From: Protonemura montana
Lineage: Eukaryota; Arthropoda; Insecta; Plecoptera; Nemouridae
Length of the DNA: 64,000 bases
Direction of reading: 5' to 3'
Assembly (NCBI GenBank): GCA_947568835.1
Contig: OX387603.1
Location: forward strand, 2,581,701 to 2,645,700
Positions 3,723 through 62,240 of this stretch are shown in pieces. Each line of letters begins with the position of its first letter. Position 1 is the first letter of the stretch. The notes under the pieces are model-generated. The model saw only the letters and a program-made list of their open reading frames with translations, did not search any database and was not told the origin of the DNA. The translations under genes and the position numbers were made by a program.

Positions 3723-6700
3723 ATGCAGATCTACGTGGCAGTGGTATTGGCGCTGTTCGCAGTCGCTCAGGTAAAGCAACTATTTTAATTTTGAATTGCA
3801 TTCTGATTTCGGGCTAGAAGAGGAAAATTGATCCCTAACGAGTTTCCGGGCTGCAAAATACTCATTCGTTTAGAATCTAAGCTAAACACAAATATTTTTT
3901 GATCTGTGGGCGTGCATTTAATTTATCTAGAGGCAATGTCAGATTTACACACAAGCGAAGTGTCTAGCAATTGATACTTGCAAATGTGTTTTCATAGAAA
4001 AATCTAGATTGCATTTCTGTTTTAGCTTCAGAGCCAGGACTTACCAAGGCTAATCAGACGCTGTTAACGCATAGTTTTGCTGCTGGTGCTCAGCTGGTGC
4101 TTGGATGGTGCTTAGCTGATGCTTAATTGATGCATGGCTGCTTTTACTCTGAACCTTCATCTGTTTCTTCATTGCGCTTCGTCCTCTACAGGGAGGCGTT
4201 GTGCGCTCTGACGTGAACCCTCACATCCTCGGGGGCTCCAACGCGTACCAAGGTCAGTTTCCGTGGATTGTCTACATCACCATGGACAACGCGGGGTTCT
4301 GCGGGGGTACAGTGATCAGCCAGGATTGGGTGCTCACCATGGCACACTGCGTGGATAGGTAGGTGCTCTACAGACATGTTTTATAATAGATTGTTTCTTT
4401 GCATCTATAATGGGTGGCCCCAGATGCCTCACCCAAAGATATTAAACTGTAGGTTTGTTTCTGGTATACAAACACCGAAGCTGTAACCGGTAAGCAATTG
4501 ATCACCAAACGTTTTGGCGTGTTGGAAACACCGGTCCTCATGAGAATCGCTTAACTTCGACGATATTGTCACGAGAACCGGTGTTTCCAACACGATAAAC
4601 CGTTCGGTGGTCACCCATCCTATGCCTGACCCAGCGCAGTGTTGCTTAACGTCGGTGATCTCACGAGAATCGATGTTTCCAACACGCCAAACCGTTCGGT
4701 GTGACGATTCGAGGAAGGCTCGTAAGCAATTGGACCCGCTGTGTGACTTGATTTGGTCAAGAACACTCATATCTAACAAATGCTAACATAGTTAAAATTA
4801 ATCTAATTAAACATCCGCAATTAAAGTACGAGAATTTGCAGTCGTTTAGCATCAGCTTGCTTAGAAAACATTTGGTTTGTGATAGCAGCTGTGGACGCCA
4901 TTGCTGTTATCACCTCAATCCACTTCGAAAACCGGTCAGCTAATGGGAGCCGAGCTTCAGTCGATTAAAAGTAGGAGGCTGGGTCGATCGAGCACGTGTT
5001 GTGACGTCACTTGAACAGCGATGCAGTAGGTTTCAGGCGATACTCTTCTGTCGGCTACTCGCCTGGTACGAAGAGACAAATTTTCGCCTCGTTTTAGACG
5101 ATTATTTCAGTTGAAACTTGTCATGGTTGGATTAACCGTACGTATAGGCAGTCCCGTGGCACTCACGCGTACCACGAGTTGCTTCAAAGTTTTCACAGGC
5201 AAACTAAATTTCCTGACATCATTCGTTCCCAGCTACTTGACACAATTTTGTGAAATATAGCTTTGAATTTTAGGCATAGGCAACGCCTCAAAATAGTACC
5301 GATCGGAAGATACAAATATGTGATATTCTGACTTTTGTTGCAAAACTTGTTGCAAACCTTTACAAGATACGATATTTTCTGCGTTGTAGTGCGATCTTAC
5401 CAGCGCACGCAATGGCAGTGACAACGGACCGGAAGTTAATATGTCTAAAATACCTTAGAGCCTTTACCATCAGCGAACCAAGAGTCCTCATTCACAATAT
5501 CAACCAAGCAATGTCATACACAAAACCGAGTATGCTCAAACAAAAATCTTATTTTGAGAGGTGAAACAATTGTCAAAAAGATCTGCTCCAGTCGCTCGTT
5601 TCATACCTGTTTTACTAGAACCGGTGGTTGGACCGAAATGACCTGTCAGAGACCACTTGCTTGGCGGCCCATTCACGCACTGCCTAATCTTGTACTGCCG
5701 TTTCTTCTCAGCGACCCTGAACTAGTTTCTTGCGTGTAAATTTAATCGGCATACATTTTTCTTGTCTCGCCTAAAGACGCTCCCAATCCCTTGTACGCGG
5801 ATGTTTAATTTTCGTGACCCGTGAAATCCTTGCTCTCCCGACAAGTCCTTGCTTACATCGCAGGAACCAGCGATGTGTATCATAAGAGCAGATTGATTGA
5901 TTGATTAGTGACGTTTAACGACGCACTGTTTTGACAACGGACAATGTGGCACTGGTCTAATAGTGCCGGTAAATGAGTGAGTGATGATGAGAATGATGAT
6001 TTACATTCCTAATTAAGAAGCACCAACGAGCGCCGACGAGCACCAATGGGGCCCCTGGCTTAACGTCCCTTCAATTCAAATCAATTCAATGCCTTTATTT
6101 TTCATTTTTTTTTACAGAACACTCGTAATGTTTAAGGAAAACAATGAGAATGAAAAAAGTCAACGTGTTTGCAAACCCCATATGTATAGCCCCGTGTTTA
6201 TAAAGATTAAAACATAATAATAAAATACAGTCTTATAGTAAATATCAATCACAATAATTACATTTGCAATCTTTTGCTTCGCTAAATTCATCCATGGTAT
6301 TACAATCCATGGTTTACAAGGAATTTTTTCGTAGTTTCTTTAAAAATTGATATTTTGCACTCTGTGGCTTGAGTTTGTCTGGTAGATTATTAAAAATGTG
6401 TGCCCCTAAGTTTTTAGGGGTTCGTTCTGTTATGTTTAATCTAATTCTAGGTTGGCGCAAGACATTTTTGTGTCTTGTATTTAAGTTATTTACATCAATA
6501 TTTTTTGTAAAAACACCAGTATTATCTACTACAAATAAAAGTAGTTCTAGTATACATGTCATGGTTAAAATCTGGTGTTTTATAAAAAACGGTTTACAGG
6601 ATTGTTGATTCCCTACATTGTAGACTATTCTTAATGCCCTCTTTTGTTTTAAGAAAATTGTTTGTGCTGCTGGCGAGCTACCCCAAAGAAGAATCCAAAT

Positions 6701-9700
6701 CTACTTTTAGCGTTGATCAGGGCTTGGAAAGCGATTTTTTTGCAGTAGGCTCGTTTACTCGGTTTGTCAAATTCGATAGTACGTAGCATGCCGAGCTTGA
6801 CGCCCCGCTAAGTTTCTTTGTGTGTTCTTTCCATTTCAGTCTATGTTCAACTGTGTTACCTAGAAAGTCACACGCACCTCTTTAGTGTTTAAAGTAGTGT
6901 TTTCACATTTCACTTTTGTTATGCCTGCGTTTCCTTTCCCTTTCAATATTACAATGTTCGTCTTGTCGTGCTTTAATTTGAGTTGGTTTGGACTGAACCA
7001 TCTTTCTGCCGTGCTAAATGTTGTTTTCAAGTTATGTAATAGGTCAATGTCATTTTGTCCATTAAATATTTATCTAGTATCGTCCGCGTATAAAATTACT
7101 TCCGTATTTGCATTCGTTGTGGCAGCGGCCTAAAAAGAACTGGAGCCAGCAAGGATTCCGTGTTTAATTGTTTTCCATTCTGACCCTTCTTCGTCGTAAT
7201 TGATTTTCACTTTCCGTTTCCTGTCTGATAGGTAAGATCGGATCAAGTTTAAAGCCACCCCATTTATACCGTAATATTTGAGTTTTTCTATTAGAATGGA
7301 ATGGTTTATTGTGTCAAACGCTTTTGATAAGTCACAGAAAATAACACCTACTGCTATTTTTCTTTCGAGACACTCGGTCACGTTATGCTTTAGACTGGTT
7401 GCTGCAGTCGTCGTTGAAAATCCTTTGCGAAACCGGTGCTGATTGTTACATAGTTTATCATTTTCTTTAATAAAGTTGAGCAACTTGATTAAAAATACTT
7501 TCTCGAAAATCTTTGAGAAGTTGGTAAACAAGACTAACTGGACGGTAATTGTTCATGTTTGTTTCCGGAACTTTCTTATAGAGTGGGTAAATTATCGATC
7601 GTTTCGCAGCTTTAGGGAATGTTCCTGACATTAGCGAATAGTTACATATTTTCTCTAGTGGTTTTGCTATTCCTATGCTAACACATTTTCCACAATTGAA
7701 CAATTGAACAATGGACAGCAATTGAAAAAATTGAAGGACAGTACAACTCGAACCACAGGATTCCTCCACAAATCCATGCTGTCGAGAGGTTGATAAGCAA
7801 GGCGAGTTAAGTTGCTGAACTAACTTTCAACCCTCCAACCTCCCTCCCGAACAGAACTGGTCATGTGTATGATGGTCACTCATATTTCAGAAGTGAAATC
7901 CAAAAGCTGACAACCATGTAAAATTATTTAAAGCATAGATTTAAATTGCAAATGGGGTTGGATTGTTTCGCTCACTACCCTCATCAAACACATAAAATTT
8001 CAATGTTTTAATGTCGGGAAAAATAACTTCAATAACCACAATTTAAAGGTCAAATTAAGTTGCAGAAGACATTTTGCATTACATGTATGCTCCCTTATGA
8101 TATCAGCGATCAGAGGCGCCGGAGCAGCGATCATATTTCAGAGATCAGCCAGATCAATGAACTCCAGTCTGCTAGAGCCTCTCTTGCAGTCCTGGAACAT
8201 CAAACACGGAGAGAGATTTTGCTGCTTTTTTGACTGCCGAGTTGAATTTTAACCAGTGGATTTGTTTCGCGGCGACCAGTACTGTAGCGAAATGAGTAAT
8301 TCGGCTCTTCATGGGTGCTAGTTTCGTGTCTGCAAGATAGCTGTCAAAAAAAAGATGTCAGCTTACCGATTCCTTTGAAATAAGGAACCTGGACCAATCA
8401 TTTGTTCGCTGCCAGCAAAAATTAAAAATTAATTTTTTTGCGTGTAGCGAAACAAGAACCATGTTACGGAATGTCCTGCACAGAGGCGACGGCGAATGTT
8501 ATTTCCAGGGGGATGCAAGCTCACCCCCTTGTACCCCCCTCCGGACGCCAATGCTGTCGCTTAACTTCGGTGATCTCACGAGAACCGCGGTTTCCTACAC
8601 GACAAACCGTTCGGTGGTCACCGATCCAATACCTGACCCAGCGCAGTGTTGCTTAACGTCGGTGATCTCACGTGAACCGGTGTTTCCAACACGCCAAACC
8701 GTTCGGGTGTTACGATTCGAGGAGGGCTCGTAAGTATTTGGACCCGCTGTGTGACTTGATTTGGTCAAGAACACTCACGTCTAACCAACACACCTAACTA
8801 ATATCTAACTAACATTTGACTAGCATTTAACACAGCATTTTACCATTAGTTTTCGAGTCACAAGTATCTAGTTCTCTAAGTTCTCTAGTTCTCTATAGCT
8901 CTCTAGATCTCTAGTTCTTTAAGTTTACAATTGTTCTAAGTTTTAAGTTTTAAGTCTCCACTCTGCTTGTAACGTTCCACATACTGTCAAAATTATTGAA
9001 TTTCTACATAGCTTATAATTAAGTGTTATCCATGTTTTATAAAAGTGCTAACATAGTTAAAATTAATCTTATTAAACATCCACAGTTAAAGTACGAGAAT
9101 TTGCAGTTCTTTTGCATCTGCATGCCTGGAAATCATTTGGTCTGTGATAGCAGCCGTGGACGCCATTGCTGTTATCACCTCAATCCACTTCGAAAACCGG
9201 TCAGCTAATGGGAGCCGAGCTTCAGTCGATTAAAAGTAGGAGGCTGGGTCGATCGAGCACGTGTTGTGACGTCACTTGAACAGCGATGCAGTAGGTTACA
9301 GGTGATACTCTTCTGTCGGCTACTCGCCTGGTACGAAGAGACAAATTTTCGCCTCGTTTTAGACGATTATTTCAGTTGAAACTTGTCATGGTTGGATTAA
9401 CCGTACGTATAGGCAGTCCCGTGGCACTCACGCGTACCACGAGTTGCTTCAAAGTTTTCACAGGCAAACTAAATTTCCTGACAACGTCATTCGTTCCCAG
9501 CTACTTGACACAATTTTGTGAAATATAGCTTTGAATTTTAGGCATAGGCAACGCCTCAAAATAGGACCGATCGGAAGATAAAAATATGTGATATATTCTG
9601 ACTTTTGTTGCAAAACTTGTTGCAAACCTTTACAAGATACGATATTTTCTGCGTCGTAGTGCAATCTTACCAGCGCAACTTAATGGCAGTGACAACGGAC

Positions 9701-12700: not shown

Positions 12701-15700
12701 TAAAAATTAATTTCTTTGCGTGTAGCGAAACAAGAACCATGTTACGGAATGTCCTGCACAGAGGCGACGGCGAATGTTATTTCCAGGGGGATGCAAGCGT
12801 ACCCCCTTGTACCCCCCTCCGGACGCCAATGCTGTCGCTTAACTTCGGTGATCTCACGAGAACCGCGGTTTCCAACACGACAAACCGTTCGGTGGTCACC
12901 CATCCAATACCTGACCCAGCGCAGTGTTGCTTAACGTCGGTGATCTCACGAGGACCGGTGTTTCCAACACACCAAACCGATCGGTGTTACGATTCGAGGA
13001 GGGCTCGTAAGTATTTGGACCCGCTGTGTGACTTGATTTGGTCAAGAACTCTCACATCTAACAAACACACCTATCTAATATCTAACTAACATTTGACTAG
13101 CATCTAACACAGCATTTTACCATAAGTTTTCGAGACACAAGTATCTAGTTCTCTAAGTTCTCTAGTTCTCTATAGCTCTCTAGATCTCTAGTTCTTTAAG
13201 TTTACAATTGTTCTAAGTTTTAAGTTTTAAGTCTCCACTCTGCTTGTAACGTTCCATATACCGTCCAAATTATTGAATTTCTACATAGCTTATAATTAAG
13301 TTTTATCCATGTTTTATGTTAAACGTCACTCTGTCTTTATGTCTTGTTCTGTTTGGGTTTTTCTGTTTGTGTTGTCCACGTGTTGTCCAAATTTTATTAA
13401 ATCGCACTTGTGGACTCTCCTCTGTTGCCGATAAATAAATAATTAGTATTATTATTAACAAAAAATGCTAATCCGCAATTAAAGTACGAGAATTTGCAGT
13501 TGTTTAGCATCTGCATGCCTGGAAAACATTTGGTCTGTGATAGCAGCCGTGGACGCCATTGCTGTTATCACCTCGATCCCCTTCGAAAACCGGTCAGCTA
13601 ATGGGAGCCGAGCGTCAGTCGATTAAAAGTAGGAGGCTGGGTCGATCGAGCACGTGTTGTGACGTCACTTGAACAGCGATGCAGTAGGTTTCAGGCGATA
13701 CTCTTCAGTCGGCTACTCGCCTGGTACGAAGAGACAAATTTTCGCATCGTTTTAGACGATTATTTCAGTTGAAACTTGTCATGGTTGGATTAACCGTACG
13801 TATAGGCAGTCCCGTGGCACACACGCGTACCACGGGTTGCTTCAAAGTTTTCACAGGCAAACTAAATTTCCTGACAACGTCATTCGTTCCCAGCTACTTG
13901 ACACAATTTTGTGAAATATAGCTTTGAATTTTAGGCATAGGCAACGCCTCAAAATAGTACCGATCGGAAGATACATATATGTGATATTCTGACTTTTGTT
14001 GCAAAAAGTGTTGCAAACCTTTACAAGATACGATATTTTATGCGTTGTAGTGCAATCTTACCAGCGCAACTAAATGACAGTGAGAACGGACCGGAAGTTA
14101 ATATGCCTAAAATCCCTTACAGCCTTTACCATCAGCGAACCAAGGGTCCTCATTCACAATATCAACCAAGCAATGTCATACATAAAACCGAGTATGCTCA
14201 CACAAAAATCTTATTTTGAGAGGTCAAGCAATTCTCAAAAAGATCTGCTCCAGTCGCTCGTTTCATACTTGTTTTACTAGAACCGGTGGTTGGACTGAAA
14301 TGACCTGTCAGAGACCACTTGCTTGGCGGCCCATTCACGCACTGCCTAATCTTGTACTGCCGTTTCTTCTTAGCGACCCAGAACTGGTTTCTTGCGTGTA
14401 AAATTAATCGGCAGATATTTTTCTTGTCTCGCCTAAAGACGCTCCCAATCCCTTGTGCGCGGATGTTTTATTTTCATGACCCGTGAAATTCTTGCTCTCC
14501 CGACAAGTCCTTGCTCACATCGCAGGAACCAGCTATGTGTATCATAAGAGCAGATTGATTGATTGATTAGTGACGTTTAACGACGCACTGTTTTGACAAC
14601 GGACAATGTGGCACTGGTCTAATAGTGCCGGTAAACGAGTTAGTGATGGTGAGAATGATGATTTACATTCCTATTTCAGAAGGAAGGAGGGGAAACCCGG
14701 TGCACGTGGCGTGCAACATCAGTGGTGACCATCATACACATGACCAGTTCTGTTAAGGAGAGAGGTTTGAAGGATGAAATTTAGTACAGCAACTTCACTC
14801 GCCTTGCTTATCAACTTCTTGACAGCATGGATTTGTTGGGGAATCCTGTTGTTCGAGTTTTACCGTCCTTCGGAAGGGACGTTAAGCCGGTAGTCCCCTT
14901 GGTGCTATTCGACAGGAGTAGGCTACGTGCCGGCACCGGATTTTCCCTCCTCCCTCCTAGGTTAGGTTAGGTTTATCATCATTTGCTCATTCACCGACGC
15001 CATTAGACCAGTGCCACATGGCCCTTTGTCAAAACAGTGCATCGTTAAACACACTAATAAAGCCATTGATAAGTAAGATAACCTTCTTTATAATAAATAT
15101 ATTTTCAATAAATCACATATATAATAATTGTTGTAATATAAATAAATGATAAATGCAATTTATATTTATGTATCGTATATTTTTTCCGGGTGATCCAACT
15201 GGAGTCCCTTCTTCGGTACTACGGTTGATTTCTTTTTCCGACAGTGTGAAATCGTTCCTTCTCGTGTTCGGCAATCTCCTGCCGGGAGGCGAAGAAGGTA
15301 GTAACATGCAATTTGCGGGAAGCCGCAACGTCGTCGCCCACCCTCGTTACAACGAGGATACAATTGAAAACAATATCGCAGTCATCAGACTTGACAAGCC
15401 TCTCGTCTTCACCCGTAAGTGACAAAAACTAGATCTTCGTGAAGGCAATTTCAGTTGCGTGTTTCTTTGTGATAAAAATGGGTGGGGTGTAAAAAGAGCT
15501 AGTGAATGGGGGGGAGGGGGGGCTGCGCTCCATAACACCCCCCTTCCCTTCCCACCCCTCCTTCCATATTTTAATTACCGGACACTTTATTCTTGAACTG
15601 GTAACATTTTGCATTCAAAACAATTTCTGCAAATTCCAGTCTATCAATTGAAATTGATGTTTCGATACCAGTTTCGAAAAACATTTTCAGAAATCTTGGT

Positions 15701-18700: not shown

Positions 18701-21700
18701 GCTTATCATGACATATATCCACGTATATATTTGCAACTATTTGTGGGCTTTGTGTCCGAGTGGTGAAGCTGTCGGTACTGAGTGCCGGAGGAACACGTTC
18801 AAATTCAGATGAATGCAGGTTTTTTCTTATCTTCGGGCTTATGTAGCGATTGAATGTGCCAGGAATAGCCGCCACCATTTAACAAATATTTAAACCTTAT
18901 GGAACAGTTCAAAATCTGCTAACAGATGGCGTGCAACGCCATCTGTTAGCCACAACAATTAACAACAAAAAAGGTGAAGATCGCACTTGTCCTACCAAAT
19001 GGTTGTCAGGATCCAACGCAAAGATCCCAACCCCTCGGGGATCGACCGACCAGGATGGCCGGTCTCACTCCGGTACCTCTAAATGCTGCACCCAGGGTCT
19101 TGTCTTTAACTAAGTATGGCCGAACGGGACCTAGTGTGTACGGCATGTCGACAGCGAACTCTGTTGGGACATCGAGCAGTAATTGATCAATTAATCAAAT
19201 GTCAGTACATCAGTGATCAGTCGGTAACTACAGTGTACCTACTCGCTTAATTATCCAAGCTGCCGAATCAAAAACAACCGCGCGTTTCAAACCAGTTTTA
19301 CTAGCGTCGGTAACCCGTTACACTTCATGTGCAGCTATCGCAGTTCTTAAACGCTGACAAGATATGGGAGCAGCGGGAGATCGAGGGAGAAACCATTTTG
19401 TGGCAGAAAGGGCAGATTGTACCCCTGAACACGATGAGCTATATCGATTTTAAACATTGAAACTTGAATAACTCCCTTAATATTAATCGGAGACAAAATC
19501 TGAGGGGTGCATTCGACTTCCCTTGGAATTCTACCCCAGTTGACACCCCTCGCGGGTCAAAATCCATCACTTGAAATTCCACTCGAAAAATATTGAAAAA
19601 AACAATGGACTAACCCCTTACGTTTTTTCTTGATTTTTGAAGATTCACCCATACTGTGGTCTAAGGGGTAGTTTGCACCCCCGAACACGATGGGCTAATT
19701 AGATTTTGTGTTAGCCTTATACTTTAGCAGCTATATCGAATTTAAACATTAAAACTTGAATAACTCCCTTAATATTAATCGGAGACAAAATCTGAGGGGT
19801 GCATTCGACTTCCCTTGAAATTCTACCCCAGTTGACACCCATCGCGGGTCAAAATCCATCACTTGAAATTCCACTCGAAAAATATTGAAAAAATCAATGG
19901 ACCAACCCCTTACGTTTTTTCTTGATTTTTGAAGATTCACCCATACTGTGGTCTAAGGGGTAGTTTGCACCCCCGAACACGATGGGCTAATTAGATTTTG
20001 TGTTAGCCTTATACTTTAGCAGCTATATCGAATTTGAACATTAAAACTTGAATAACTCCCTTAATATTAATCGGAGACAAAATCTGAGGGGTGCATTCGA
20101 CTTCCCTTGAAATTCTACCCCAGTTGACACCCCTCGCGGGTCAAAATCCATCACTTGAAATTCCACTCGAAAAATATTGAAAAAATCAATGGACCCCTTA
20201 CGTTTTTTCTTGATTTTTGAAGATTCACCCATACTGTGGTCTAAGGGGAAATTTGCACCCCCGAACACGATGGGCTAATTAGATTTTGCGTAAGCCTTAT
20301 ACTTTAGCAGCTATATCGATTTTAAACATTAAAACTTGAATAACTCCCTTAATATTAATTGGAGACAAAATATTAGGGGTGCATTCGACTTCCCTTGAAA
20401 TTCTACCCCAGTTGACACCCCTCGCGGGTCAAAATCCATCACTTGAAATTCCACTCGAAAAATATTGAAAAAATCAATGGACCCCTTACGTTTTTTCTTG
20501 ATTTTTGAAGATTCACCCATACTGTGGTCTAAGGGGTAATTTGCACCCCCGAACACGATGGGCTAATTAGATTTTGCGTAAGCCTTATACTTTAGCAGCT
20601 ATATCGATTTTAAACATTAAAACTTGAATAACTCCCTTAATATTAATTGGAGACAAAATATTAGGGGTGCATTCGACTTCCCTTGAAATTCTACCCCAGT
20701 TGACACCCCTCGCGGGTCAAAATCCATCACTTGAAATTCCACTCGAAAAATATTGAAAAAATCAATGGACGAACCCCTTACGTTTTTTCTTGATTTTTGA
20801 AGATTCACCCATACTGTGGTCTAAGGGGTAGTTTGCACCCCCGAACACGATGGGCTAATTAGATTTTGTGTTAGCCTTATACTTGAGCAGCTATATCGAA
20901 TTTGAACATTAAAACTTGAATAACTCCCTTAATATTAATCGGAGACAAAATCTGAGGGGTGCATTCGACTTCCCTTGAAATTCTACCCCAGTTGACACCC
21001 CTCGCGGGTTAAAATCCATCACTTGAAATTCCACTCGAAAAATATTGAAAAAATCAATGGACTAACCCCTTACGTTTTTTCTTGATTTTTGAAGATTCAC
21101 CCATACTGTGGTCTAAGGGGTAGTTTGACCCCCCGAACACAATGGGCTAATTAGATTTTGTGTTAGCCTTATACTTTAGCAGCTATATCGAATTTAAACA
21201 TTAAAACTTGAATACTTCCCTTAATATTAATCGGAGACAAAATCTGAGGGGTGCATTCGACTTCCCTTGAAATTCTACCCCAGTTGCCACCCCTCGCGGG
21301 TCAAAATCCATCACTTGAAATTCCACTCGAAAAATATTGAAAAAATCAATGGACCAACCCCTTACGTTTTTTCTTGATTTTTGAAGATTCACCCATAATG
21401 TGGTCTAAAGGATAGTTTGCACCCCCGAACACGATGGGCTAATTAGATTTTGTGTTAGCCTTATACTTTAGCAGCTATATCGAATTTAAACATTAAAACT
21501 TGAATAACTCCCTTAATATTAATCGGAGACAAAATCTGAGGGGTGCAATCGACTTCCCTTAAATTCTACCCCAGTTGACACCCCTCGCGGGTCAAAATCC
21601 ATCACTTGAAATTCCACTCGAAAAATATTGAAAAAATCAATGGACTAACCCCTTACGTTTTTTCTTGATTTTTGAAGATTCACCCATAATGTGGTCTAAG

Positions 21701-23924
21701 GGGTAGTTTGCACCCCCGAACACGATGGGCTAATTAGATTTTGTGTTAGCCTTATACTTTAGCAGCTATATCGAATTTAAACATTAAAACTTGAATACCT
21801 CCCTTAATATTAATTGGAGACAAAATCTGAGGGGTGCATTCGACTTCCCTTGAAATTCTACCCCAGTTGACACCCCTCGCGGGTCAAAATCCATCACTTG
21901 AAATTCCACTCGAAAAATATTGAAAAAATCAATGGACTAACCCTTACGTTTTTTCTTGATTTTTGAAGATTCACCCATACTGTGGTCTAAGGGGTAGTTT
22001 GCACCCCCGAACACGATGGGCTAATTAGATTTTGCGTTAGCCTTATACTTTTGCAGCTATATCGATTTTAAACATTAAAACTTGAATAACTCCCTTAATA
22101 TTAATTGGAGACAAAATATGAGGGGTGCATTCGACTTCCCTTGGAATTCTACCCCAGTTGACACCCCTCGCGGGTCAAACTCCATCACTTGAAATTCCAC
22201 TCGAAAAATATTGAAAAAATCAATGGACTAACCCTTACGTTTTTTCTTGATTTTTGAAGATTCACCCATACTGTGGTCTAAGGGGTAGTTTGCACCCCCG
22301 AACACGATGGGCTAATTAGATTTTGCGTTAGCCTTATACTTTTGCAGCTATATCGATTTTAAACATTAAAACTTGAATAACTCCCTTAATATTAATCGGA
22401 GACAAAATATGAGGGGTGCATTCGAATTCCCTTGAAATTCTACCCCAGTTGACACCCCTCGCGGGTCAAAATCCATCACTTGAAATTCCACTCGAAAAAT
22501 ATTGAAAAAATCAATGGACCCTTACGTTTTTTCTTGATTTTTGAAGATTCGCCCATTCTGTGGTCTAAGGGGTAATTTGCACCCCCGAACACGATGGGCT
22601 ATTTAGATTTTACATTCACTTCATAGTTTAGTCCCTAGAACGATTTTTATGTTAAAAGTGTCAATAACTCCCTCAGTTTTTATCTGAGAGAAACATAGGG
22701 GTGTGCATTCGACTCCTCCTGAAATTATGCTTATATTGACACCCTTCGTGGAGCAAAATTAGTCACGCGAATTTCCACCGCAAATATTGTAAAAAACGTA
22801 AGGAAGAACCATTACCCCCAACATATTAGTAGTTTAGCTTGAATTACTCCTTTAATTTTGACCCAAGATGAAAAAAGGGATGTGAATTCGACTCCCTTTG
22901 ACATTCAACACCAATTTTTCTCCCTTTTTGAGTAAAATTCATTATTCAAAGTATTGCCGTTTTAAGACGTTTGCTTCCTTCGAGTGTAGGCTTTTAAAAG
23001 TACACATATGAAATGCGGGTATGTCTAGCAATCAGGCGCAGGGTTTTTGGAGTATTATCGTATTATTTGGGACAAACGGCACTATCACAGGACTCTAAGA
23101 TAAAGGTCTAAACAGGCTCTAAGCTAAATAAAACTTTGATATTTGCAAGCGGGATTTCTACGGGAAATTTTTTCTGTCATGAATCATTGAAATTTTAGTG
23201 GGCGCTTTAACTGTCAAATGAGTACAGAACTAACAGCCAAACTAGCGGCACTATCCAGCTCTATCGAAGCACTTTTGATATCGGCACAGATCTGTGATAC
23301 CGGTTGTAAAACCATTCTTTCTTATAGTGTAGCATTTCGAGCATTAAGTTGGCAACGTCATTTTGGACCTTAAATTACCAACAAAATGGGCCGGACCGCA
23401 TTCTTGATACAGCCAACTTGATGAACAGAAAACAGTTTAGAAAAGAGATCAGGGTTAATCGAGCTGCTGGCACGGCTTCATCCCTATGCAGAGGCAGCCG
23501 GCTATGCGAATATCCTGAAATGGGTCGACCTACCTGTGATCAGCAACAGCCTATGTGACGTCTCCTACCACTCAATAATGCCTGGCAACATCTGCGCTTC
23601 GGGGTTGAACGGACGTAGCACCTGTATCGTGAGTGAACATATTTCAACCGCCTACAATTCTTGCAACCAATTTTCATGCAATACTCAATTTGCGGTCATG
23701 ATATTTTGGCCGAGTTTCTGCAAATTGTTCGATGGTTTTGTTTGCAGGGCGATTCTGGCAGCCCGTTGGTCCTTCGGCAGTCGTCGGGAGATAACGGCCC
23801 CCTAATCGGAATCCTCTCATATGACTATCTGAACTGCGAGCGCGACTACCCTGCAGTGTTTACTAGGATCACATTTTACCTCGATTGGATCCATGATACC
23901 ACACTCATCGGGATAGCACCATAA
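3723..23924 (+). CDS. S1 protease homologue, probable pseudoprotease, complete
   Basis: Exons 3723-3770, 4192-4358, 15245-15414, 16037-16135, 23492-23628 and 23748-23924 join in frame to 265 residues plus TAA. Exon 1 encodes the signal peptide MQIYVAVVLALFAVAQ. Exon 2 has ILGG, but the residue before it is His (SDVNPH) where the paralogue has Arg, so a tryptic activation site is missing. His57 (TMAHC) and Ser195 (GDSGSP) remain, but the Asp102 motif reads ENNIAVIRL, with AAT (Asn) at 15372-15374. All six disulfide cysteines and the Ser in the S1 pocket are kept. Splice phases match the gene at 221-2119 exactly. Intact frame and splice sites suggest a retained secreted non-enzymatic homologue rather than a dead gene; expression is unknown. 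Introns are 421, 10886, 622, 7356 and 119 bp, the two large ones filled with repeats. Confidence 0.88.
4505..4780 (-). repeat. 5S rRNA-derived SINE fragments, partly inverted
   Basis: Read on the minus strand, about 4560-4710 shows the 5S pattern TGTTGGAAACACCGG, then GTTAAGCAACACTGCGC, then GGATGGGTGACC. At 4510-4545 the segment TTTGGCGTGTTGGAAACACC is on the plus strand, so part of the head is inverted against itself and could form a hairpin. The downstream part (about 4700-4780) matches the ends of the two 4.3-kb units that follow. Confidence 0.8.
5891..6072 (-). mobile_element. 5S-SINE tail half, split by LINE insertion
   Basis: Matches the 3' part of the SINE (complement of GTTTAACGACGCACTGTTTT, then the two-fold TTAACGTCCCTTC block). 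It stops at CCCTTC where the retrotransposon begins. The rest of this SINE resumes at 7733. Confidence 0.8.
6073..7732 (-). mobile_element. Truncated non-LTR retrotransposon (jockey/CR1-like RT), copy 1
   Basis: Minus-strand translation gives reverse-transcriptase blocks: SLMSGTFPKAAKRSIIYPLY, NYRPVSLV, SKIFEKVFL, FCDLSKAFDTINHSIL, YLSDRK, then VILYADDT with the catalytic YADD (near 7080-7110), then thumb sequence FLGNTVEHRLKWKEH, and a C-terminal region with LNTRHKNVLRQPRIRLN and FNNLPDKLK. The endonuclease and the start of the RT are missing. The region between the QGS-like block and YADD is shortened and broken by stops and frameshifts, so it cannot encode an active protein. The 3' end at about 6073-6115 has an A-rich/ATTGAA-type tail. 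The element sits inside a SINE. Confidence 0.85.
7733..7883 (-). mobile_element. 5S-SINE head half, split by LINE insertion
   Basis: Resumes at GAAGGACAG, one base after the point where the tail half stops, and runs to the GGTCAC of box C near 7880. Together with 5891-6072 it makes one SINE interrupted by the retrotransposon. Confidence 0.75.
8440..8515 (+). repeat. Segment related to the 70-bp tandem repeat
   Basis: GCGAAACAAG, then CACGGAATGTCC-like and CAGAGGCGACGGCGA blocks occur in the same order and spacing as in the array at 63605-63955. A second copy is at 12716-12790. Here only one unit is present. Confidence 0.7.
8552..8790 (-). repeat. Double 5S rRNA-derived head
   Basis: Two 5S-like heads in tandem on the minus strand, each with the CACCGG and GATCACCGA...GTTAAGC blocks and one with the box C GGATGGGTGACC-type block (degenerate). 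The minus-strand 5' flank (CAAATCAAGTCACACAGCGG) differs from the 91-bp-module SINEs, so it is a second 5S-derived subfamily. Confidence 0.75.
10161..10342 (-). mobile_element. 5S-SINE tail half in unit 2
   Basis: Same split SINE as at 5891-6072, interrupted at the same base. The nesting therefore came before the duplication of the 4.3-kb unit. Confidence 0.78.
10343..12012 (-). mobile_element. Truncated non-LTR retrotransposon (jockey/CR1-like RT), copy 2
   Basis: Duplicate of 6073-7732. Here the RT palm frame is open further: one minus-strand frame at 11411-11836 runs from NYRPVSLVTNFSKIFEKV through LSKAFDTINH to SDRKQKVKIN, whereas copy 1 has a frameshift after NYRPVSLV. The block before YADD is lost in the same way as in copy 1, so the defect is ancestral. 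Confidence 0.85.
12013..12163 (-). mobile_element. 5S-SINE head half in unit 2
   Basis: Counterpart of 7733-7883, from GAAGGACAG to the box C complement near 12160. Confidence 0.75.
12716..12790 (+). repeat. Segment related to the 70-bp tandem repeat (unit 2)
   Basis: Near-identical to 8440-8515 and related to the array at the right end of the window. Confidence 0.7.
12832..13060 (-). repeat. Double 5S rRNA-derived head (unit 2)
   Basis: Counterpart of 8552-8790. Read on the minus strand it has TGTTGGAAACACCGGT, GATCACCGACGTTAAGCAAC and GGATGGGTGACC in 5S order, then a second partial head. Confidence 0.78.
13465..14672. repeat. 4.3-kb duplication unit 3, truncated
   Basis: Matches the first 1.2 kb of units 1 and 2, including the SINE tail half at about 14553-14672. 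It then stops before the retrotransposon and is joined to a plus-strand SINE. Confidence 0.88.
14722..15065 (+). mobile_element. 5S-SINE with one promoter remnant
   Basis: Starts at the end of box C (GGTGACC), then the 91-bp module remainder, then the SINE body with CCGTCCTTCGGAAGGGACGT and the tail block GTCAAAACAGTGCATCGTTA. The 5S-like first half is missing or degenerate (14690-14722). Confidence 0.8.
17521..17587 (-). repeat. tRNA-like sequence
   Basis: Minus strand has an A-box-like TGGCCTAATGG and a perfect B box GGTTCGAATCC at tRNA spacing. The two ends do not pair into an acceptor stem, so it is a tRNA-derived repeat or pseudogene, not a working tRNA. Confidence 0.6.
17653..18680. 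repeat. 1-kb palindrome (foldback) with nested hairpins
   Basis: Arms of about 500 bp, roughly 17653-18175 and 18185-18680, are near-complementary (GTGCAGCTCC, GGCGGACGCGACTGGCGC and their complements). Each arm carries a tRNA-like piece with A-box TGGTTAGCGAACG and B-box ATCGAATCCC (18061-18118 minus, 18240-18297 plus). In the left arm a perfect 32-bp inverted repeat (17898-17929 with 17968-17999) encloses a 38-base loop that has its own hairpin, GGACACG/CGTGTCC. The right arm keeps only half of this inner structure. Confidence 0.85.
18921..18945. repeat. Short perfect hairpin
   Basis: ACAGATGGCG, five-base loop, CGCCATCTGT. It lies inside the inverted-repeat element; role unknown. Confidence 0.6.
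19410..22610. repeat. Satellite array, about 290-bp unit, eleven copies
   Basis: Successive copies start near 19440, 19730, 20020, 20310, 20600, 20890, 21180, 21470, 21760, 22050 and 22350, marked by ACTTGAATAACTCCC and CCGAACACGATGGGCTA. Unit lengths vary around 288-292 bp through small indels. The minus strand of several copies has an open frame of 63-75 codons containing DFDPRGVSTGVEFQ, but indels shift or end it between copies. The array is in intron 4 of the protease homologue. Confidence 0.93.
22611..22960. repeat. Diverged satellite copies at the array edge
   Basis: Blocks like AATAACTCCCTCAG, GTGTGCATTCGACTCC and TTGACACCCTTCG repeat the satellite order with many substitutions. An old edge beside a homogenised core is usual for satellites. 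Confidence 0.75.
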
Positions 23925-35700: not shown

Positions 35701-38700
35701 GGAGCTAGACTTTCAAAACTAATCACCCCTTTTAGTGGTCAATGCAAGCCAAGCTCGGGTTACTTTGGTTAATTAACTACCAGCCCCTGCTAATTGGACC
35801 AAATTAGGCTCCGTTAAAAGCGACATTTGATGTCAACAAACGCAGTCATCACACTGAAGGTTCAGCTTAAACGATCAAAACCTCGTTTAGTAGGAAACTT
35901 CTGCGTGCAGTGGTTTCATGGTAGAGAAAACCAATTACCAAAATCATGGCATGATGTACTCCCAGAAGAGTACAGGACAAATGTTGTTACACAATTTAGG
36001 CTGTGATTGTGACTATTATTCTGGTTTTTAGACAAGTCTATAATCTCTAGCCTCAGCACTGGTTTTGAAAAAATAAATATATTTCAGACAAGCTGCCTGG
36101 ATCCTATGCTCTATCTAGGTTGTTTGAGATCAGCTAGCTGGAGGCTATGCTCTATCCAGGTTATTTAAGATCAGCTGGCTAGATCCTATGCTCTATCCAG
36201 GTTATTTGAGATCAGCTGGCTGGATCCTATGCTCTATCCATGTTATTTGAGATCAGCTATCTGGATCCTATGCTCTATCCAGGTTATTTAAGATCAATAG
36301 GATCTCATTGCAAGCTACGTCCATGAGTCCTTCAGAGGCAACTAGCAAAACTACATTTAAGACCCATTCTCCTGTTACTTGGCTCCGTTGTCACATTCTC
36401 CGTGCCACCCACCTGGCGGTGGCATCCTCGGCTGGGTGTCCTGTGCAAGCGCCCGATGCCGACCCTGCGCCGCGTTCTGCGCCAACAGCAGCTGCGGCAG
36501 CAGATCTCCCCCGAGCGCGATCGCGCCGTCAATGCCGGGGTCGCCCGTTGCCAGGTTCGGGTTTGTGTAGTCGCGCGACTTGTCGTTGTTGTACTTCACG
36601 TTCAGGCTGGATAGCTTCGAGTATTCGATGCGTAACGTGCAGCAAGAGTTGTAGATGTTTTGACCGTCGAGGGACTATGGAAATTAAAAAAACACAATTT
36701 GTTAAAAATTAATTGAATTAATACCTGAAACTATTGATTTTATTTGTAACAGTAAAGGAAATGGTTTGGCACTAGTGTATTTAATTTTCGTGAATGATAG
36801 GCTGACAGCCTAGTCCTTTAGTTCCAAGCGTAAGTGTAAATGTGACCGGCACAGAAACTCAAGCATTTCTTGCCGTCCAAAATTTGAAAGGAAAAGTGGG
36901 TAAAAAGACTGGCCTCGATTCTCTGAACAAAATTGGTCAAGCGTAAGGTTAGCAGTGACCAACCATTCACTGATCTCAACTTGTCTGAAGCAGTTGACAC
37001 AGAGACTTCTTGAATCCTGGAATTTGAGTAAGAGCCTGTGGAAAGAGCCTGTGCTATATCAACTGTTTTCATCTGTATTTTTTGAAGTTTTCACAAATTT
37101 AATAGGCAAATTGGTTGAAAAAGTGTTTAAAAATTAGCATTGAAATCATACGGACACCTTGGATTTAGGGACTCCAACTATGGATCGCCTGACTGAAATA
37201 TTGTTCAGCTGGCTGGATCCTATGCTCTATCCAGGTTACTTGAGATCAGCTGGCTAGATCCTATGCTCTGTCCAGGTCATTTGAGATCAGCTGGCTGGAT
37301 CCTGTGCTCTATCCAGGTTATTTGAGATCAGTGATTGATACAGGTCCCGACGTTGAAATGATCTATGAAGAACGAGTAAAGTAAAGTCGCTGTGTATTCA
37401 GACTGATGAGGCCAGGTCTCTTCCCGACTGCTTTGCGACCTGTCCCGGCACGCTGCAAGTGATTATCAAGCTGCAGATAGTTACGACCAGCAGTTGATTG
37501 AAATGAGTAAACGCTGCGTCTAGAATTAGTTTCGCCGCAGCAAATTGGATAGTGCAAAAACGCAATTTTCTGGTGCACCATGGGAGCGGCGCTCGGTGGG
37601 TGGGTGGGAGGGCGGCAGCGGGTGCTTTTGAAAACACCAGTTGCAGCTAATTATTAAATTCCTCAATCAACTCTCGGCTTCCTTTGTGCTGCAGCGACTA
37701 GCGACTAGCGAGTAATAACCCAACAGGCTTCGCGTTCGGCGAGCACCATCGCGAGATGAGCTCTGTGACCAGTGGCGTCATCAAGTGGCGCAACGTGGAG
37801 TCGTCACTGGTTGCGGTGAAGAGTTCAGAGAATATTTAGATAATGCGATCGTTGAAAACCTCATTGTAACATTGTTGAAACATGAGAGCCACATTGTTGA
37901 CCAACAATGAGAACAATCATCAAAAGGTTTCTGTCACCCGACAGACATATTAGCTCAAGTTCAGTAAATCCAGATGGGTGATAAGTGTCCCGATTTGGAC
38001 CCAGTATCGGTTGGATGATCCCTATGAAAATGATCTCGTGGTTGCAGGGACATATCACCATAAAGAGGACATTAATTTTAGGGGAACTAGCGAGTTTTCT
38101 GGTACGATTGACACTCCCACGACCTTGCGGCAAAGCGAGTCGAGTCTTTAAATGTTTAAAATTGTACACATTATGTCTAATAATTCTCGCATTGAGTTGA
38201 AATGATTGGTACCTTGTTTTTGGACTATTTTCAATGCGTAAGACGGGGAACGAAGCACGTTTTTCCACAGTTAAGTTGATATTAACATCCGAACTAAAGC
38301 GCCTGAACCAATCGTGGCGGGCATGGTTCGCACGCCACTGGCGTCGCGTTTGACAATTAGCCGGAGCAAAATGAAATTAATAAACGAAGCCGGGACAGAC
38401 GAAGCCGGAACAATGGAACGAGCGAGTAATAAAGCTTGCAAACGTGCACTCAAAGCAAACTGGTAGGCGGGGGACGAGCGCTGGAAAACAAATGTTTTCA
38501 GCTGAGTCCACCACATATTATTATTAGGTTTGCTCGCATGTCCCACCACGAGTTGCGCACAACAGAACGTTTTATCGACTGTTTATCTCTTTCAGCAGGT
38601 GTGTGAAGGTAAGTGCGACCTACACCTTGTCTGCTGCCGACAAGGCCCAACACCGAACGGTTTGTCGTGTTGGAAACACCGGTCCTCGACCGAAGATAAG

Positions 38701-41700
38701 CAACACTGCGCTGGGTCAGGTATTGGATGGGTGACCATCATACACATGACCAGTTCTGTTCGGGAGAGAGGTTGGAGGGATGAAAGTTAAGCAACACTGC
38801 GCTGGGTCAGGTATTGGATGGGTGACCATCATACACATGACCAGTACTGTTCGGGAGAGAGGTTGGAGGGATGAAAGTTAAGCAACACTGCGGTGGGTCA
38901 GGTATTGGATGGGTGACCGTCATACACATGGCTGGTTCAGTTCGGGAGAGAGGTTGGAGGGATGAAAGTTAGTACAGCAACTTCACTCGCCTTGCCTATA
39001 AACCTCTCGACAGCATGGATTTGTGGAGGAATCCTGTTGTTCGCGTTGTACCGTCCTTCAGAAGGGACGTTAAGCCGGTGGTCCCCTTGGTCTTCGACAT
39101 GAGTTATAGGCTACGTGCCGGCACCGGGTTTCCCCTCCTCCTCATCATCATCCGCTCATTCACCGACGCCATTAGACCAGTACCACATGGCCAGTTGTCA
39201 AAACAGTGCGTCGTTAAACACCACAAATCAATCAAATCACAAGGCCAACAAAGAACGCAATGCTTCAAAGCACCCATATTTTGCTCGACTCTTTGTCGCT
39301 ACCTGAATGCAACTCTGACATCGATCGCTAATCCCGTAACGTACATCCAAAAGCAAGTACAGATCGGCTCAAAATAGCGTGAACACCCCCCTACCCCTAG
39401 ATCCAGAATCTTCCAGAGTCGAGTACATAGCATTGCGCAACAGGTGACGTTATTCGAATGAGAAACGCGAGCCCATAGCCTTTTGTGTCGCTTTCTGGAA
39501 GCAAAGAGCTTTCAGCATCGTCCAGGTTTCCAGAGCACGGCCGGTAATTTAAATCCTGTCACTTCCGGGAACAGCACAACCCTCTCTCATGGCGGGGATT
39601 AGCGCCAGTTTTTACACCTAGAGAGTCTTAGTATGTCTTAAGTGATGTCGCCCTGGTCTTGTAGGCGGAGGTATTGATTTACTGACTGGCTTGGTGGGCT
39701 CACATGCAGTGGAGGCAATTGTTCGAGACCATGGATGTGTGACTATGATAATGTGCTAACCCAAGCGCGGCAGAGTCGATGGAGACCTATCGTAAGTTGA
39801 CAAGCCCAGTACATGAGCCTGATGTACTCTTGTTTTAAAGGGATAGAGAAATAAGCGACCACTCGACTCTGCATCTAGACCTGTTTAACGACGCACTGTT
39901 TTGACAACGGGCCCTGTGGCAGTGGGCGTCGATGAATGAGCGGGTTATGGTGAGGATGATGGTCAACCTAACCTTAACTAAAAGCGATGGGAAACCCGGT
40001 GCCGGCACGTAGCCTACTCCTGTTGAAGAGCACCAAGGGGACCAACGGCTTAACGTCCCTTCCGAAGGACGGTACAACGCGAACAACAGGATTCCTCCAC
40101 AAATCCATGGTGTCGAGAGATTGATAAGCAAGGCGAGTGAAGTTGCTGTACTAACTTTCATCCCTCCGACCTCTCTCCCGAACAGAACTGGTCATGTGTA
40201 TGATGGTCACCCATCCAATACCTGACTCAGCGCAGTATTGCTTAACTTTCATCCCTTCAACCTCTCTCCCGAACAGAACTGGTCATGTGTATGACGGCCA
40301 CCCATCCAATACATGACCCAGCGCAGTATTGCTTAACTTTCATCCCTCCAACCTCTCTCCCGAACAGAACTAGTCATGTGTCACCCATCCAATACCTGAC
40401 CCAGCGCAGTGCTGCTTAACTTTCATCCCTCCAACCTCTCTCCCGAACAGAACCGGTCATGTGTATGATAGTCACCCATCCAATACCTGACCCAGCGCAG
40501 TGCTGCTTAACTTTCATCCCTCCAACCTCTCTCCCGAACAGAACTGGTCATGTGTATGATGGTCACCCATCCAATACCTACCCCAGCGCAGTGTTGCTTA
40601 ACTTTCATCCCTCCAACCTCTCTCCCGAACAGAACTGGTCATGTATATGATGGTCACCCATCCAATACCTAACCCAGCGCAGTGTTGCTTAACTTTCATC
40701 TCAGTAGGACCGGTGTTTCCAGCACGCCAAACCGTGTGCCTATGTGGGAGGGGGGGAGGGGGGGGGGGGGGGCGGCAAAGCTCTTGTTACTTTAGGCCAG
40801 AAAGGAAATTTGAGCGAAAACCAATCCCTAATGGCCACAGAGATTTCGGAACTAACTGACTTAACTAACTTAAATTTACCTTAAACACAAATTGAAGTCT
40901 GCAAAAAAAGCGGCGTGACGTAATGGCCAGGGTAAATAAGTAGCAACGAGCATTACGCGGATCATGTGAGAAACAAAAGGCGACCGCACGCTAATTTTCC
41001 CCGAGCTAACGAGGCTATTTTCCGTTGTTAAGAAAAACCCTGCTCTCTCCTTGTTAATTTCCCTTTGTGCACCTCGGCGAGTTCCGCGGCGTCAGATAAA
41101 TTTGGTTTATCTTCGTCGGAAAGCAGCGCGCCATTCGTTCGCGTACACAGAATTAAACGAGCGACGCAGAAACAAAACAAAAAAAAAAAACTGTGCCGGA
41201 AAACGTCGCAAAGAAAAGCTAAGTAGCTTGGGAAAGCTTAACGTGATTTTCCGAGGCCGTTTTCCGAGAAAACTGGGCGGATGTGAGCAGCACGGCGTCT
41301 TTTGTCTGCCGGGCCATTATTACCCTGATTTTCTTGCAGAGCTTTCGAAGACAATATCATCGGTTTTAGTCGGTGTCGCAGAGCTACTGTTAAACGTCCT
41401 GCCGAGCAAACGAGGCCGGCAACACGTGGTCATGGTTGTTGCCACCAGATAGCACTTGCGGTCGTCCCATAAAAAAACCTCTACAATGTAATAATTACAA
41501 AATATCGACATTTCAATCATTGTTAAGCCAAAAATGAAGATCATTTACGCGTAACTCAGTTTCGTATGCAAGCAAGAACCAAATGGTATTATTCTTTGCT
41601 CGCTTCACCAAAAATCATCGACCTTCTTCGTCGGTTTCGTTGATGACAGCTTCGTGACTTTGACTTACGGCTACAAACCCAACGCGATGGTATCACCTCT

Positions 41701-53959: not shown

Positions 53960-54390
53960 AAAAGATTAAATAGCGCTTAAAGACGCATTGTTTTACAACA
54001 AGCCCGTTGAGACTCGCTATAGTGGCAGCAGTGAATTAGTGGATGATGATGAGGATGATGATGAACCTTTCCTTTTAGTCTAGTAAGGAAAAGGAGAAAC
54101 CCGGTGCCGGCACGTAGCCTACTTCTGTCGAATAGTACCAAGGGGACCACCGGCTTAACGTCCCTTCCGAAGGACGGTACAACGCGAACAGCAGGATTGC
54201 TCCACAAATCCATGCTGTCGAGAGGTTGATAAGCAAGGCGAGTGAAGTTGCTGTACTAACTTCAATCCCTCCAACCTTTACTGTTTCTGGTCAGGATGGT
54301 CACCCTTCCAAAGTGTAACCCAGCGCAGTGTTGCTTAACTTCCGCGGTCTCACGCGAACCCGTGTTGCCAGCACGCCAAGATGTTCGATA
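53960..54390 (-). mobile_element. 5S-SINE with one promoter module
   Basis: Minus-strand copy just upstream (in PTB sense) of exon 53882-53745: tail near 53966, body with GTACCGTCCTTCGGAAGGGA on the minus strand, one module with box C complement near 54298, and the 5S 5' half ending near 54385. Confidence 0.85.
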
Positions 54391-54814: not shown

Positions 54815-55490
54815 TTGATTTATTTGTGGTGTTTAACGACACGCTGTTTTGATATCTGGTCATGCGGCACTGGTCTTATGGCGTCAGTGAATAAGTGGAT
54901 GATGATGAACCTAACCTAGCCTAGAAGGGAGGAAGGGGAAACCCGGTGCCGGCACGTAGCCTACTCCTGTCGAAGACCAAGGGGACCACCGGCTTAACGT
55001 CCCTTCCGAAGGACGGTACAACTCGAACAACAGGATTCCTTCACAAATCCACGCTGCCGCGAGGTTGATAAGCAAGGCGAATAAAGTTGTACAAACTTTC
55101 ATCCCTCCAACCTCTCTCCCGAACAGAACTGGTCATGTGTATGATGGTCACCCATCCAATACCTGACTCAGCGCAGTGTTGCTTAACTTTCATCCCTCCA
55201 ACCTCTCTCCCAAACAGAACTGGTCATGTGTATGATAGTCACACATCCAATACCTGATTCAGCGCAGTGTTGCTTAACTTTCATCCCTCCAACCTCTCTA
55301 CCGAACAGAACTGGTCATGTGTATGATGGTCACCCATCCAATACCTGACTCAGCGCAGTGTTGCTTAACTTTCATCCCTCCAACCTCTCTACCGAACAGA
55401 ACTGGTCATGTGTATGATGGTCACCCATCCAATACCTGACTCAGCGCAGTGTTGCTTAACTTCGGCGCCAAACCGTTCGGTCGCACGGGG
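54815..55490 (-). mobile_element. 5S-SINE with four tandem promoter modules
   Basis: Tail ATTGATTGATTTATTTGTGG at 54812, body to about 55100, then four modules with box C complements at 55146, 55237, 55328 and 55419, exactly 91 apart. It ends with CGCCAAACCGTTCGG. The modules are more alike than the bodies of different copies, which suggests recent local amplification. Confidence 0.9.
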
Positions 55491-56264: not shown

Positions 56265-57325
56265 CTGGTTCGGTGGCTCGCCCTGGGGACAGCACCGTAC
56301 CACCCTCGGCTGCCTGCTAGGCTAGGTGTACGAGTCTAGTTCGGTGGCTAGCCCTGGTGACAGCACCGTGCCACCCTCGGCTGCCTGCTAGGCTAGGTGT
56401 ACGAGTCTAGTTCGGTGGCTAGCCCTGGTGACAGCACCGTGTCACCCTCGGCTGCCTGCTAGGCTAGGTGTATGAGTCTGGTTCGGTGGCTAGCCCTTGT
56501 GACAGCACCGTGCCACCCTCGGCTGCCTGCTAGGCTAGGTGTATGAGTCTGGTTCAGTGGCTAGCTCTGGTGACAGCACCGTGCCACCCTCGGCTGCCTG
56601 CTAGGCTAGGTGTATGAGTCTGGTTCGGTGGCTAGCCCTTGTGACAGCACCGTGCCACCCTCGGCTGCCTGCTAGGCTAGGTGTATGAGTCTGGTTCAGT
56701 GGCTAGCTCTGGTGACAGCACCGTGCCACCCTCGGCTGCCTGCTAGGCTAGGTGTATGAGTCTGGTTCGGTGGCTAGCCCTGGTGACAGCACCGTGTCAC
56801 CCTCGGCTGCCTGCTAGGCTAGGTGTATGAGTCTGGTTCGGTGGCTAGCCCTTGTGACAGCACCGTGCCACCCTCGGCTGCCTGCTAGACTAGGTGTATG
56901 AGTCTGGTTCGGTGGCTAGCCCTGGTGACAGCACCGTGCCACCCTCGGCTGCCTGCTAGGCTAGGTGTATGAGTCTGGTTCGGTGGCTAGCCCTTGTGAC
57001 AGCACCGTGCCACCCTCGGCTGCCTGCTAGACTAGGTGTATGAGTCTTGTTCGGTGGCAAGCCCTGGTGACAGCACCGTGTCACCCTCGGCTGCCTGCTA
57101 GGCTAGGTGTATGAGTCTGGTTCGGTGGCTAGCCATGGTGACAGCACCGAGTCACCCTCGGCTGCCTGCTAGGCTAGGTGTATGAGTCTGGTTCGGTGGC
57201 TAGCCCTGGTGACAGCACCGTGTCACCCTCGGCTGCCTGCTAGGCTAGGTGTATGAGTCTAGTTCGGTGGCTAGCCCTTGTGACAGCACCGTGTCACCCT
57301 CGGCTGCCTGCTAGGCTAGGCTACG
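56265..57325. repeat. 71-bp tandem array, about fifteen units
   Basis: Unit includes TTCGGTGGCTAGCCCTGG, TGACAGCACCGTGCCACC and CTCGGCTGCCTGCTAGGC. Each unit can pair GGTGGC with GCCACC around a smaller GGTG/CACC hairpin. Copies differ at a few fixed positions (CTGGTG or CTTGTG, TGCCAC or TGTCAC) that alternate, hinting at a higher-order repeat. Confidence 0.95.
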
Positions 57326-61469: not shown

Positions 61470-62240
61470 GCCGTGTAAAGCCGATCTCAAATAACCTGGA
61501 TAGGGCATAGGATCCAGTCAGCTGATCTCAAATAACCTGGTTAGAGCATAGGATCCAGCCAGCTGATCTCAAATAACCTGGATAGAGCATAGGATCCAGC
61601 CAGCTGATCTCAAATAACCTGGTTAGAGCATAGGATCCAGCCAGCTGATCTCAAATAACCTGGATAGAGCATAGGATCCAGCCAGCTGATCTCAAATAAC
61701 CTGGATAGAGCATAGGATCCAGCCAGCTGATCTCAAATAACCTGGATAGAGCATAGGATCCAGCCAGCTGATCTCAAATAACCTGAATAGAGCATAGGAT
61801 CCAGTGAGCTAATCTCAAATAACCTGGATAGAGCATAGGATCCAGCCAGCTGATCTCAAATAACCTGGATAGAGCATAGGATCCAGCCAGCTGATCTCAA
61901 ATAACCTGGATAGAGCATAGGATCCAGTCAGCTGATCTCAAATAACCTGGATATAGCATAGGATCCAGCCAGCTGATCAAAATTGAAGTCAGACAAGCCA
62001 TTGTTGGCAACAGGTAAAAGTCTCTAAATCCAATTAAAATCTAATTTTAGTGTTTTTGAAAAACATTTTCAACCAATATTGATCGTTTAAATGGTGAAAA
62101 CTATGAAAACCACAAAAACTACCAACGAAAACACTTCAAATCCAAATCAGAAAATCAGAAAATCGAAAATCAGGACCACGATGGCGGCATTGGCTGAGAA
62201 GTCTCTCCATGGCAACCGCTATCCAGAGCTTACCTCTCGA
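61470..62240 (-). mobile_element. Mobile element with 41-bp array, about twelve units
   Basis: Array at 61480-61978, then the conserved flank (AAGCCATTGTTGGCAACAGG, TCTCTAAATCC, TTTTAGTGTTTTTGAAA) to about 62220, ending near CATGGCAACCGCTATCCAG, which matches CATAGCAACTGTTATCCATG at the end of the 59.2-kb copy. Two copies thus define one element end. Confidence 0.85.

Follow-up and report, generated by a model that had tools for sequence, protein, structure and literature searches.

Can a short interspersed element (SINE) multiply its own promoter in tandem, and how would the resulting arrays arise, change and spread? This question is raised by a stretch of 64,000 nucleotides from the plecopteran insect Protonemura montana (C2:2581701-2645700, contig OX387603.1, hereafter the window), taken from an assembly of 258 Mb in 34 contigs, in which copies of a SINE derived from 5S ribosomal RNA (5S rRNA) differ in the number (n) of a promoter-bearing module. 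Modules in the window were counted with Tandem Repeats Finder (TRF) and blastn and then read one at a time, and all module numbers are given as assembled. The tandem 91-bp modules described in the first-pass annotation withstood this reading, with n = 3, 6 and 4 in the copies at 38.65, 40.7 and 55.4 kb, respectively. That annotation had also listed two single-module copies; a decayed one, at 54.3 kb, indeed contains one module, but the one at 14.7 kb, likewise decayed, can be aligned no earlier than about module position 33 and so lacks box A. Nor does every copy have a full 5S-like head, as had been stated: the 14.7-kb copy is headless and the head of the 55.4-kb copy is internally deleted. 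We propose, with a probability of about 0.78, that the promoter-bearing 5' part of this 5S SINE behaves as a minisatellite, the modules of which are gained and lost in place and which is also retroposed.

The element is a 5S rRNA-derived SINE, as had been recognized from the letters of the window, because it has target-site duplications, tails of short units and a match to the 5S covariance model. The full-length RF00001 match reported by cmscan (38652-38765; 42.3 bits, gathering score 38) covers the head and first module of the 38.65-kb copy. Because this match ends at 38765, one module corresponds roughly to the 3' part of the 5S region, control region included, with some 21 nt of SINE sequence added. 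The element is short and dispersed: at n = 1 it has a length of about 415 bp, made up of the 5S-like head, a module, the body and a short-unit tail, and 9,428 module-body junctions are present genome-wide. We collected 114 complete copies, which were deduplicated and partly fetched by n, so that the distribution of n among them differs from that of the genome. Target-site duplications were accepted at a score of at least 9, and swapped flanks served as a control. Duplications of variable length were found in 39/114 copies (22/43 single-module and 17/71 multi-module copies) and in 0/114 with swapped flanks. The tails consist of AAT or CAAT repeats that precede the 3' duplication. Multi-module copies have the same 5' end and body as single-module copies, and nearly every head inspected starts with ACCGAACGG, whatever the module number.

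A Pfam search of ten open reading frames (ORFs) in the window gave two RVT_1 matches (E 6.5e-17 and 1.6e-11) and nothing else. Both are reverse transcriptase fragments located between 5S heads and tails, in the 12.9-kb and 8.7-kb copies of the window. We considered a long interspersed element (LINE) with a 5S promoter, of which the SINE would be a deletion derivative, and rejected it, as the insert splits the body between consensus positions 233 and 235. The LINE fragment nested in these copies ends otherwise than the SINE does, and no target-site overlap was seen at the break; the insert is read as nested on account of a single feature, its own LINE-like 3' end.

In order to count modules genome-wide, we used patterns anchored in head and body at exact distances with up to 3 mismatches, by which copies with insertions or deletions are lost, more so at high n. 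Copies with exactly 1, 2, 3, 4 and 5 modules numbered 2081, 409, 310, 220 and 132. Far from being single in nearly all copies, the outcome that the first-pass annotation had named as fatal to its proposal, the promoter module is multiplied in many of them: 1071 of the 3152 copies counted at n = 1-5 have 2-5. Module-module junctions numbered 26,941 versus 9,428 module-body junctions, which corresponds to about 2.9 per body. Reversed-pattern controls gave 0 for the module counts and for the 91-bp, 92-bp and module-body junctions, and chance is therefore excluded. Among 30 loci picked from the module-body junction set without regard to n, all of them on contig C1, 12 have n >= 2. Locus L008 reaches 13 complete modules, and C1:62179-63931 contains 17 exact module junctions within about 1.75 kb. 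The module-to-module junction is nearly always GATGAAAGTT joined directly to AAGCAACAC, and a tandem array inside the SINE body was found in 1/104 copies. A run of copies in the same orientation on C1, seen among the matches listed, was discarded as an effect of that list; anchored patterns gave minus-strand copies there. Arrays of identical units, such as that of locus L057, are easily miscounted during assembly, but most counted arrays are shorter than 1 kb, the assembly comprises 34 contigs, and in most copies the modules differ from each other; an assembly artefact is therefore highly improbable.

Array length changes in situ: a single insertion site is present in 13 near-identical subtelomeric paralogues, where n is 2 (3 loci), 3 (7 loci) or 4 (3 loci), the flanks are 98.5-100% identical (over as much as 459 bp on the upstream side and 525 bp starting at the body), and module variants are reshuffled among the loci. 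The view that these loci are simple segmental duplications was rejected: 7/13 of them adjoin a 1.2-kb unit that was found at 40 scored places (of 270 candidates) in the genome, and the paralogues may therefore ride in a larger repeat. The comparison nevertheless stands because the paralogues have both flanks in common. Single modules and blocks of modules have been duplicated in tandem within copies. In L008 modules 3-7 recur exactly as modules 8-12 (490 bp identical at a shift of 455), the six full modules of L057 are identical, and in locus L019 three variants are common to modules 2-5 and absent from module 1. Loci L022 (5 modules) and L092 (4 modules) have identical bodies.

Modules are also more alike inside a copy than between copies, a comparison that had been called for at the outset. 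Identity is 95.5% within a copy (348 module pairs) and 93.9% between copies (23,962 pairs), the highest within-copy value in 1000 label shuffles being 94.6%. Within copies, 59 cases of sharing were counted for rare variants (2-6 occurrences) versus 6.5 expected, with a maximum of 17 in 500 shuffles, and the sharing falls from 0.24 per adjacent module pair to 0.08 at distance 2. Locus L024, with one deletion-split module, entered the within-copy identity, rare-variant, target-site and body-type tests as two modules. Between copies, internal modules are 94.9% identical and first or last modules 93.0%, as expected if exchange homogenises the middle of an array. The module number rises toward contig ends on C1-C5 (Spearman -0.39, p 2e-8): the median distance to the contig end is 2.83, 2.47, 1.36 and 1.30 Mb for n = 1, 2, 3 and 4 (96, 42, 33 and 21 copies), with 5 paralogues removed and at least two more n = 3 entries that are possible paralogues (C5:39576, C4:25688202) kept. 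An alternative is that arrays expand through slippage or template jumping while the element is reverse-transcribed, and not in chromosomal DNA, as the 17 multi-module copies with good target-site duplications would allow, together with locus L039, whose 12-bp duplication flanks a doubled promoter. Such growth does not explain differing n at one site or the rise of n toward contig ends, and we give it little weight.

In addition to changing in place, the arrays are probably carried by retroposition, because two alleles found throughout the family occur side by side in about half of the multi-module copies. They are the common alleles at module position 17, mixed in 31/60 multi-module copies and in 9/17 of those with a target-site duplication; a module duplicated after insertion would not give such a mixture unless converted by another locus. 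The mixing of family-wide alleles within arrays and the uniform internal junction would also suit the spread of one multi-module source, of which single-module copies are shrunken descendants, with n mainly inherited. However, rank-aligned modules of different copies are not closer than shifted ones; no rank memory was found between copies (412 pairs, 93.3% both aligned and shifted, p 0.31), and a single source array was rejected on this comparison. The association between body type and n is weak, body identity is unrelated to the difference in n (Spearman -0.03), and n varies at one insertion site. We therefore consider inheritance from such a source to be as unlikely as growth in reverse transcription.

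Several observations weigh against module gain and loss in place combined with retroposition. Target-site duplications are rarer in multi-module copies, 11/71 of which are paralogues of one duplication-less site, and the mode of arrival of these copies is therefore less sure. Four interior copies with a common 5' flank all have n = 3. The rise of n toward contig ends could reflect age differences or local history: bodies diverge by 3.1% in multi-module versus 4.7% in single-module copies when all copies are taken (p 0.04), and by 3.1 versus 4.0% in matched picks (p 0.44). An age difference between the classes of n was set aside as a weak signal. The mixed alleles could also stem from conversion between loci, and the SINE may no longer be mobile.

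Judged from sequence, it is most likely that the additional promoters are passengers of array growth. The cores of box A and box C are both intact in 20/40 single, 31/61 first, 53/104 internal and 30/60 last modules, and conservation of the control region does not exceed that of the linker (3.0 versus 2.7%, without four common polymorphisms). From the distance between head and box A, a nested start is predicted at module position 39, with a complete module next. Of the 30 loci on C1, two are multi-module copies without a head; these begin at positions 57 and about 1, and the nested start points envisaged in the first-pass annotation are so far unsupported. Loci L034-L036 begin at positions 38-40, which fits, but were rejected as nested starts, since the body comes next without a complete module. 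Core integrity, body lineage and the starts of headless arrays thus give no sign of an advantage from extra promoters. TTTT occurs upstream of the body in 10/104 copies and is absent from the type A module consensus; given this scarcity, most arrays could be copied in one pol III (RNA polymerase III) transcript.

At least two intact pairs of box A and box C cores are kept in 35/61 multi-module copies, and several potential TFIIIA sites are therefore present in them. It is conceivable that the modules resemble the promoter monomers of mouse L1, with extra control regions kept for TFIIIA/TFIIIC recruitment or as spares after 5' truncation and with multi-module sources transposing more. The retained cores agree with this, as do the confinement of tandem arrays to the promoter part, apart from the single body array, and the presence of a whole control region in both of the registers (91 and 92 bp) in which repetition occurs. 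Against it, cores are intact equally often in all classes of module, the control region shows no excess conservation, the nearest neighbour by body has the same single or multi state in 52/104 copies, and no nested 5' ends were seen in the two headless multi-module copies examined; we regard it as unlikely. Somewhat less so, though still doubtful, is the view that every added control region functions as a site for TFIIIA/TFIIIC, which would make a many-module copy a stronger, truncation-proof source. On that view the 91-bp and 92-bp registers would be independent gains of one benefit, and exchange near chromosome ends would supply the variation.

In the second register the whole promoter, from the head through box C, is repeated every 92 bp. 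This arrangement is found in L039, where the 12-bp target-site duplication lies outside the outer head, and, within the window, in the minus-strand copies starting at 12985, 8707 and 4700, all three of them older copies that had been overlooked in the earlier annotation. The 92-bp junction occurs 2,770 times genome-wide, in runs of up to five among the matches listed, and those at C1:1225182-1225575 and C5:958612-958729 are closely followed downstream by 91-bp arrays of 5 and 4 modules. The module positions at which L034, L035 and L036 begin, with the body directly behind, coincide with the end of box C and the breakpoint of the 92-bp register; L034 and L035 are paralogues.

The passage from one module to many may be pictured as follows. 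The first duplication would have relied on a short stretch of identity, AAGTTA, that box A (GAAGTTAAGCAAC) has in common with the 3' end of the module (GAAAGTTAGTACAGCAAC), the two lying 91 bp apart. Later growth and loss would proceed by unequal exchange, slippage or conversion among modules, mostly near chromosome ends. Arrays would travel by retroposition as well: a pol III transcript from the head could copy the entire array in one go, and the extra promoters would ride along as passengers.

5S SINEs of the SINE3 class are known from zebrafish, fruit bats and springhare and, in moths, as PxSE4/PxSE5 and HaSE3 (parts of PMC8010984 and PMC3272025). Like the present element, they are described in those parts with a 5S-like head with type 1 promoter boxes, a body, a short-unit tail and target-site duplications; one promoter is described there, whereas here 91-bp modules or whole 92-bp promoters are repeated. 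The word 'tandem' is absent from PMC8010984, and among the matches listed from the open-access PubMed Central literature none named a SINE with a tandemly multiplied promoter. In mouse L1 (L1Md), tandem promoter monomers vary in number by copy, and unequal crossing-over and growth in complementary DNA synthesis are the two models given for this (part of PMC6454616). L1Md and the present SINE are alike in the variable count of tandem promoter units in their 5' part. However, L1 elements are autonomous LINEs whose promoter is of the pol II (RNA polymerase II) type, and the present element is a SINE, presumably non-coding, whose pol III promoter is of the 5S type. L1 monomer arrays belong to a LINE with ORFs, whereas this element has 415 bp and the reverse transcriptase fragment in the window is read as a nested insert. 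The element resembles an L1 monomer array in the way it varies, but is not such an array.

Variable-number internal tandem repeats within a transposable element are also found in Tetris, a foldback transposon of Drosophila virilis, where they feed satellite arrays (part of PMC4079207). Tetris belongs to the DNA transposons and has terminal inverted repeats, whereas the present element is a SINE. The segment 38645-40735 of the window does consist of two SINE copies whose tails face each other across 630 bp and whose heads point outward, but this interior is single-copy DNA (1 match in the genome), and the window pair is not a foldback-type unit in which inverted pair and interior recur together. 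No target-site duplication was found for the 38.65-kb or the 40.7-kb copy. Cassandra elements have a 5S internal promoter, as here, in the part of their description covered, but are long terminal repeat (LTR) retrotransposons, and no LTRs were seen in the present element. SVA (SINE-VNTR-Alu) is a non-autonomous retrotransposon with an internal variable number tandem repeat (VNTR), which is not known to be a multiplied 5S promoter. In the present arrays, one pol III type 1 promoter occurs naturally in anything from 1 to 13 tandem copies, across many loci and also within a single insertion site, by which the effect of promoter number on a SINE becomes directly testable. A SINE that makes its promoter a minisatellite is also a small model for the birth of satellites inside transposable elements.

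Copies of the 5S-derived SINE in the window and their parts, in window positions.
Feature	Position	Strand	Evidence
5S-like head of 3-module copy, with short deletion	38652..38697	+	cmscan RF00001, blastn
Three 91-bp promoter modules in tandem, box A and box C cores intact in 3/3	38698..38970	+	TRF, blastn, module table
SINE body and short-unit tail of 3-module copy	38971..39236	+	blastn; tail compared with genomic copies
5S-like head of 6-module copy	40691..40735	-	blastn head match 40735-40706; sequence
Six modules in tandem, one of 83 bp	40153..40690	-	TRF, blastn, module table
SINE body of 6-module copy, shortened tail	39882..40152	-	blastn
Head of 4-module copy, with internal deletion	55458..55480	-	sequence
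Four modules in tandem	55094..55457	-	TRF, blastn, module table
Body and tail of 4-module copy	54815..55093	-	blastn
Decayed one-module copy (54.3 kb)	53977..54380	-	blastn, sequence
5'-truncated copy (14.7 kb) from about module position 33, without head and box A	14724..15061	+	blastn, sequence
Register-B (92 bp) doubled promoter, consensus 1-93 then 1-61	12833..12985	-	RF00001 match 12870-12985, sequence comparison
Register-B doubled promoter, paralogue of the 12.9-kb copy	8555..8707	-	RF00001 match, sequence comparison
Register-B doubled promoter, third copy	4549..4700	-	sequence comparison

Tail-to-tail pairs of SINE arrays, about 2.8-4 kb apart, were also observed outside the window (C1:8952523/8955992, 20983980/20988063, 23320505/23323979 and 26088664/26091498; C2:18557028/18560346), and SINE pairs other than that of the window share an interior unit. 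The 1.2-kb inner-side unit (L025:8-1202) has at least 40 scored places of 270 candidates and lies beside two interior copies as well as the 7/13 subtelomeric paralogues. Array pairs and the 1.2-kb unit possibly form a composite mobile unit.

In the first 106 kb of contig C11 (C11:70-105743), at least 26 matches at 86% to an animal 5S sequence were found on both strands, which likely represent a 5S gene cluster of the host at the end of this contig. Within the window, a 4.28-kb unit is repeated in tandem at 4778-14682 (4778-9040 and 9043-13317, 95.7%, with a partial third copy at 13471-14682); it holds old 5S-SINE copies split by nested inserts, one of them with an RVT_1 fragment. About 10.9 tandem units of 292 bp occupy 19437-22611 (97% matches, TRF). 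One 41-bp minisatellite occurs in both orientations at 2391-2719, 36097-36296, 37205-37331, 57751-58985 and 61479-61978, and also near several of the fetched SINE loci. Further tandem repeats are formed by 14.9 units of 71 bp at 56265-57320 and by 5.1 units of 70 bp at 63601-63953.

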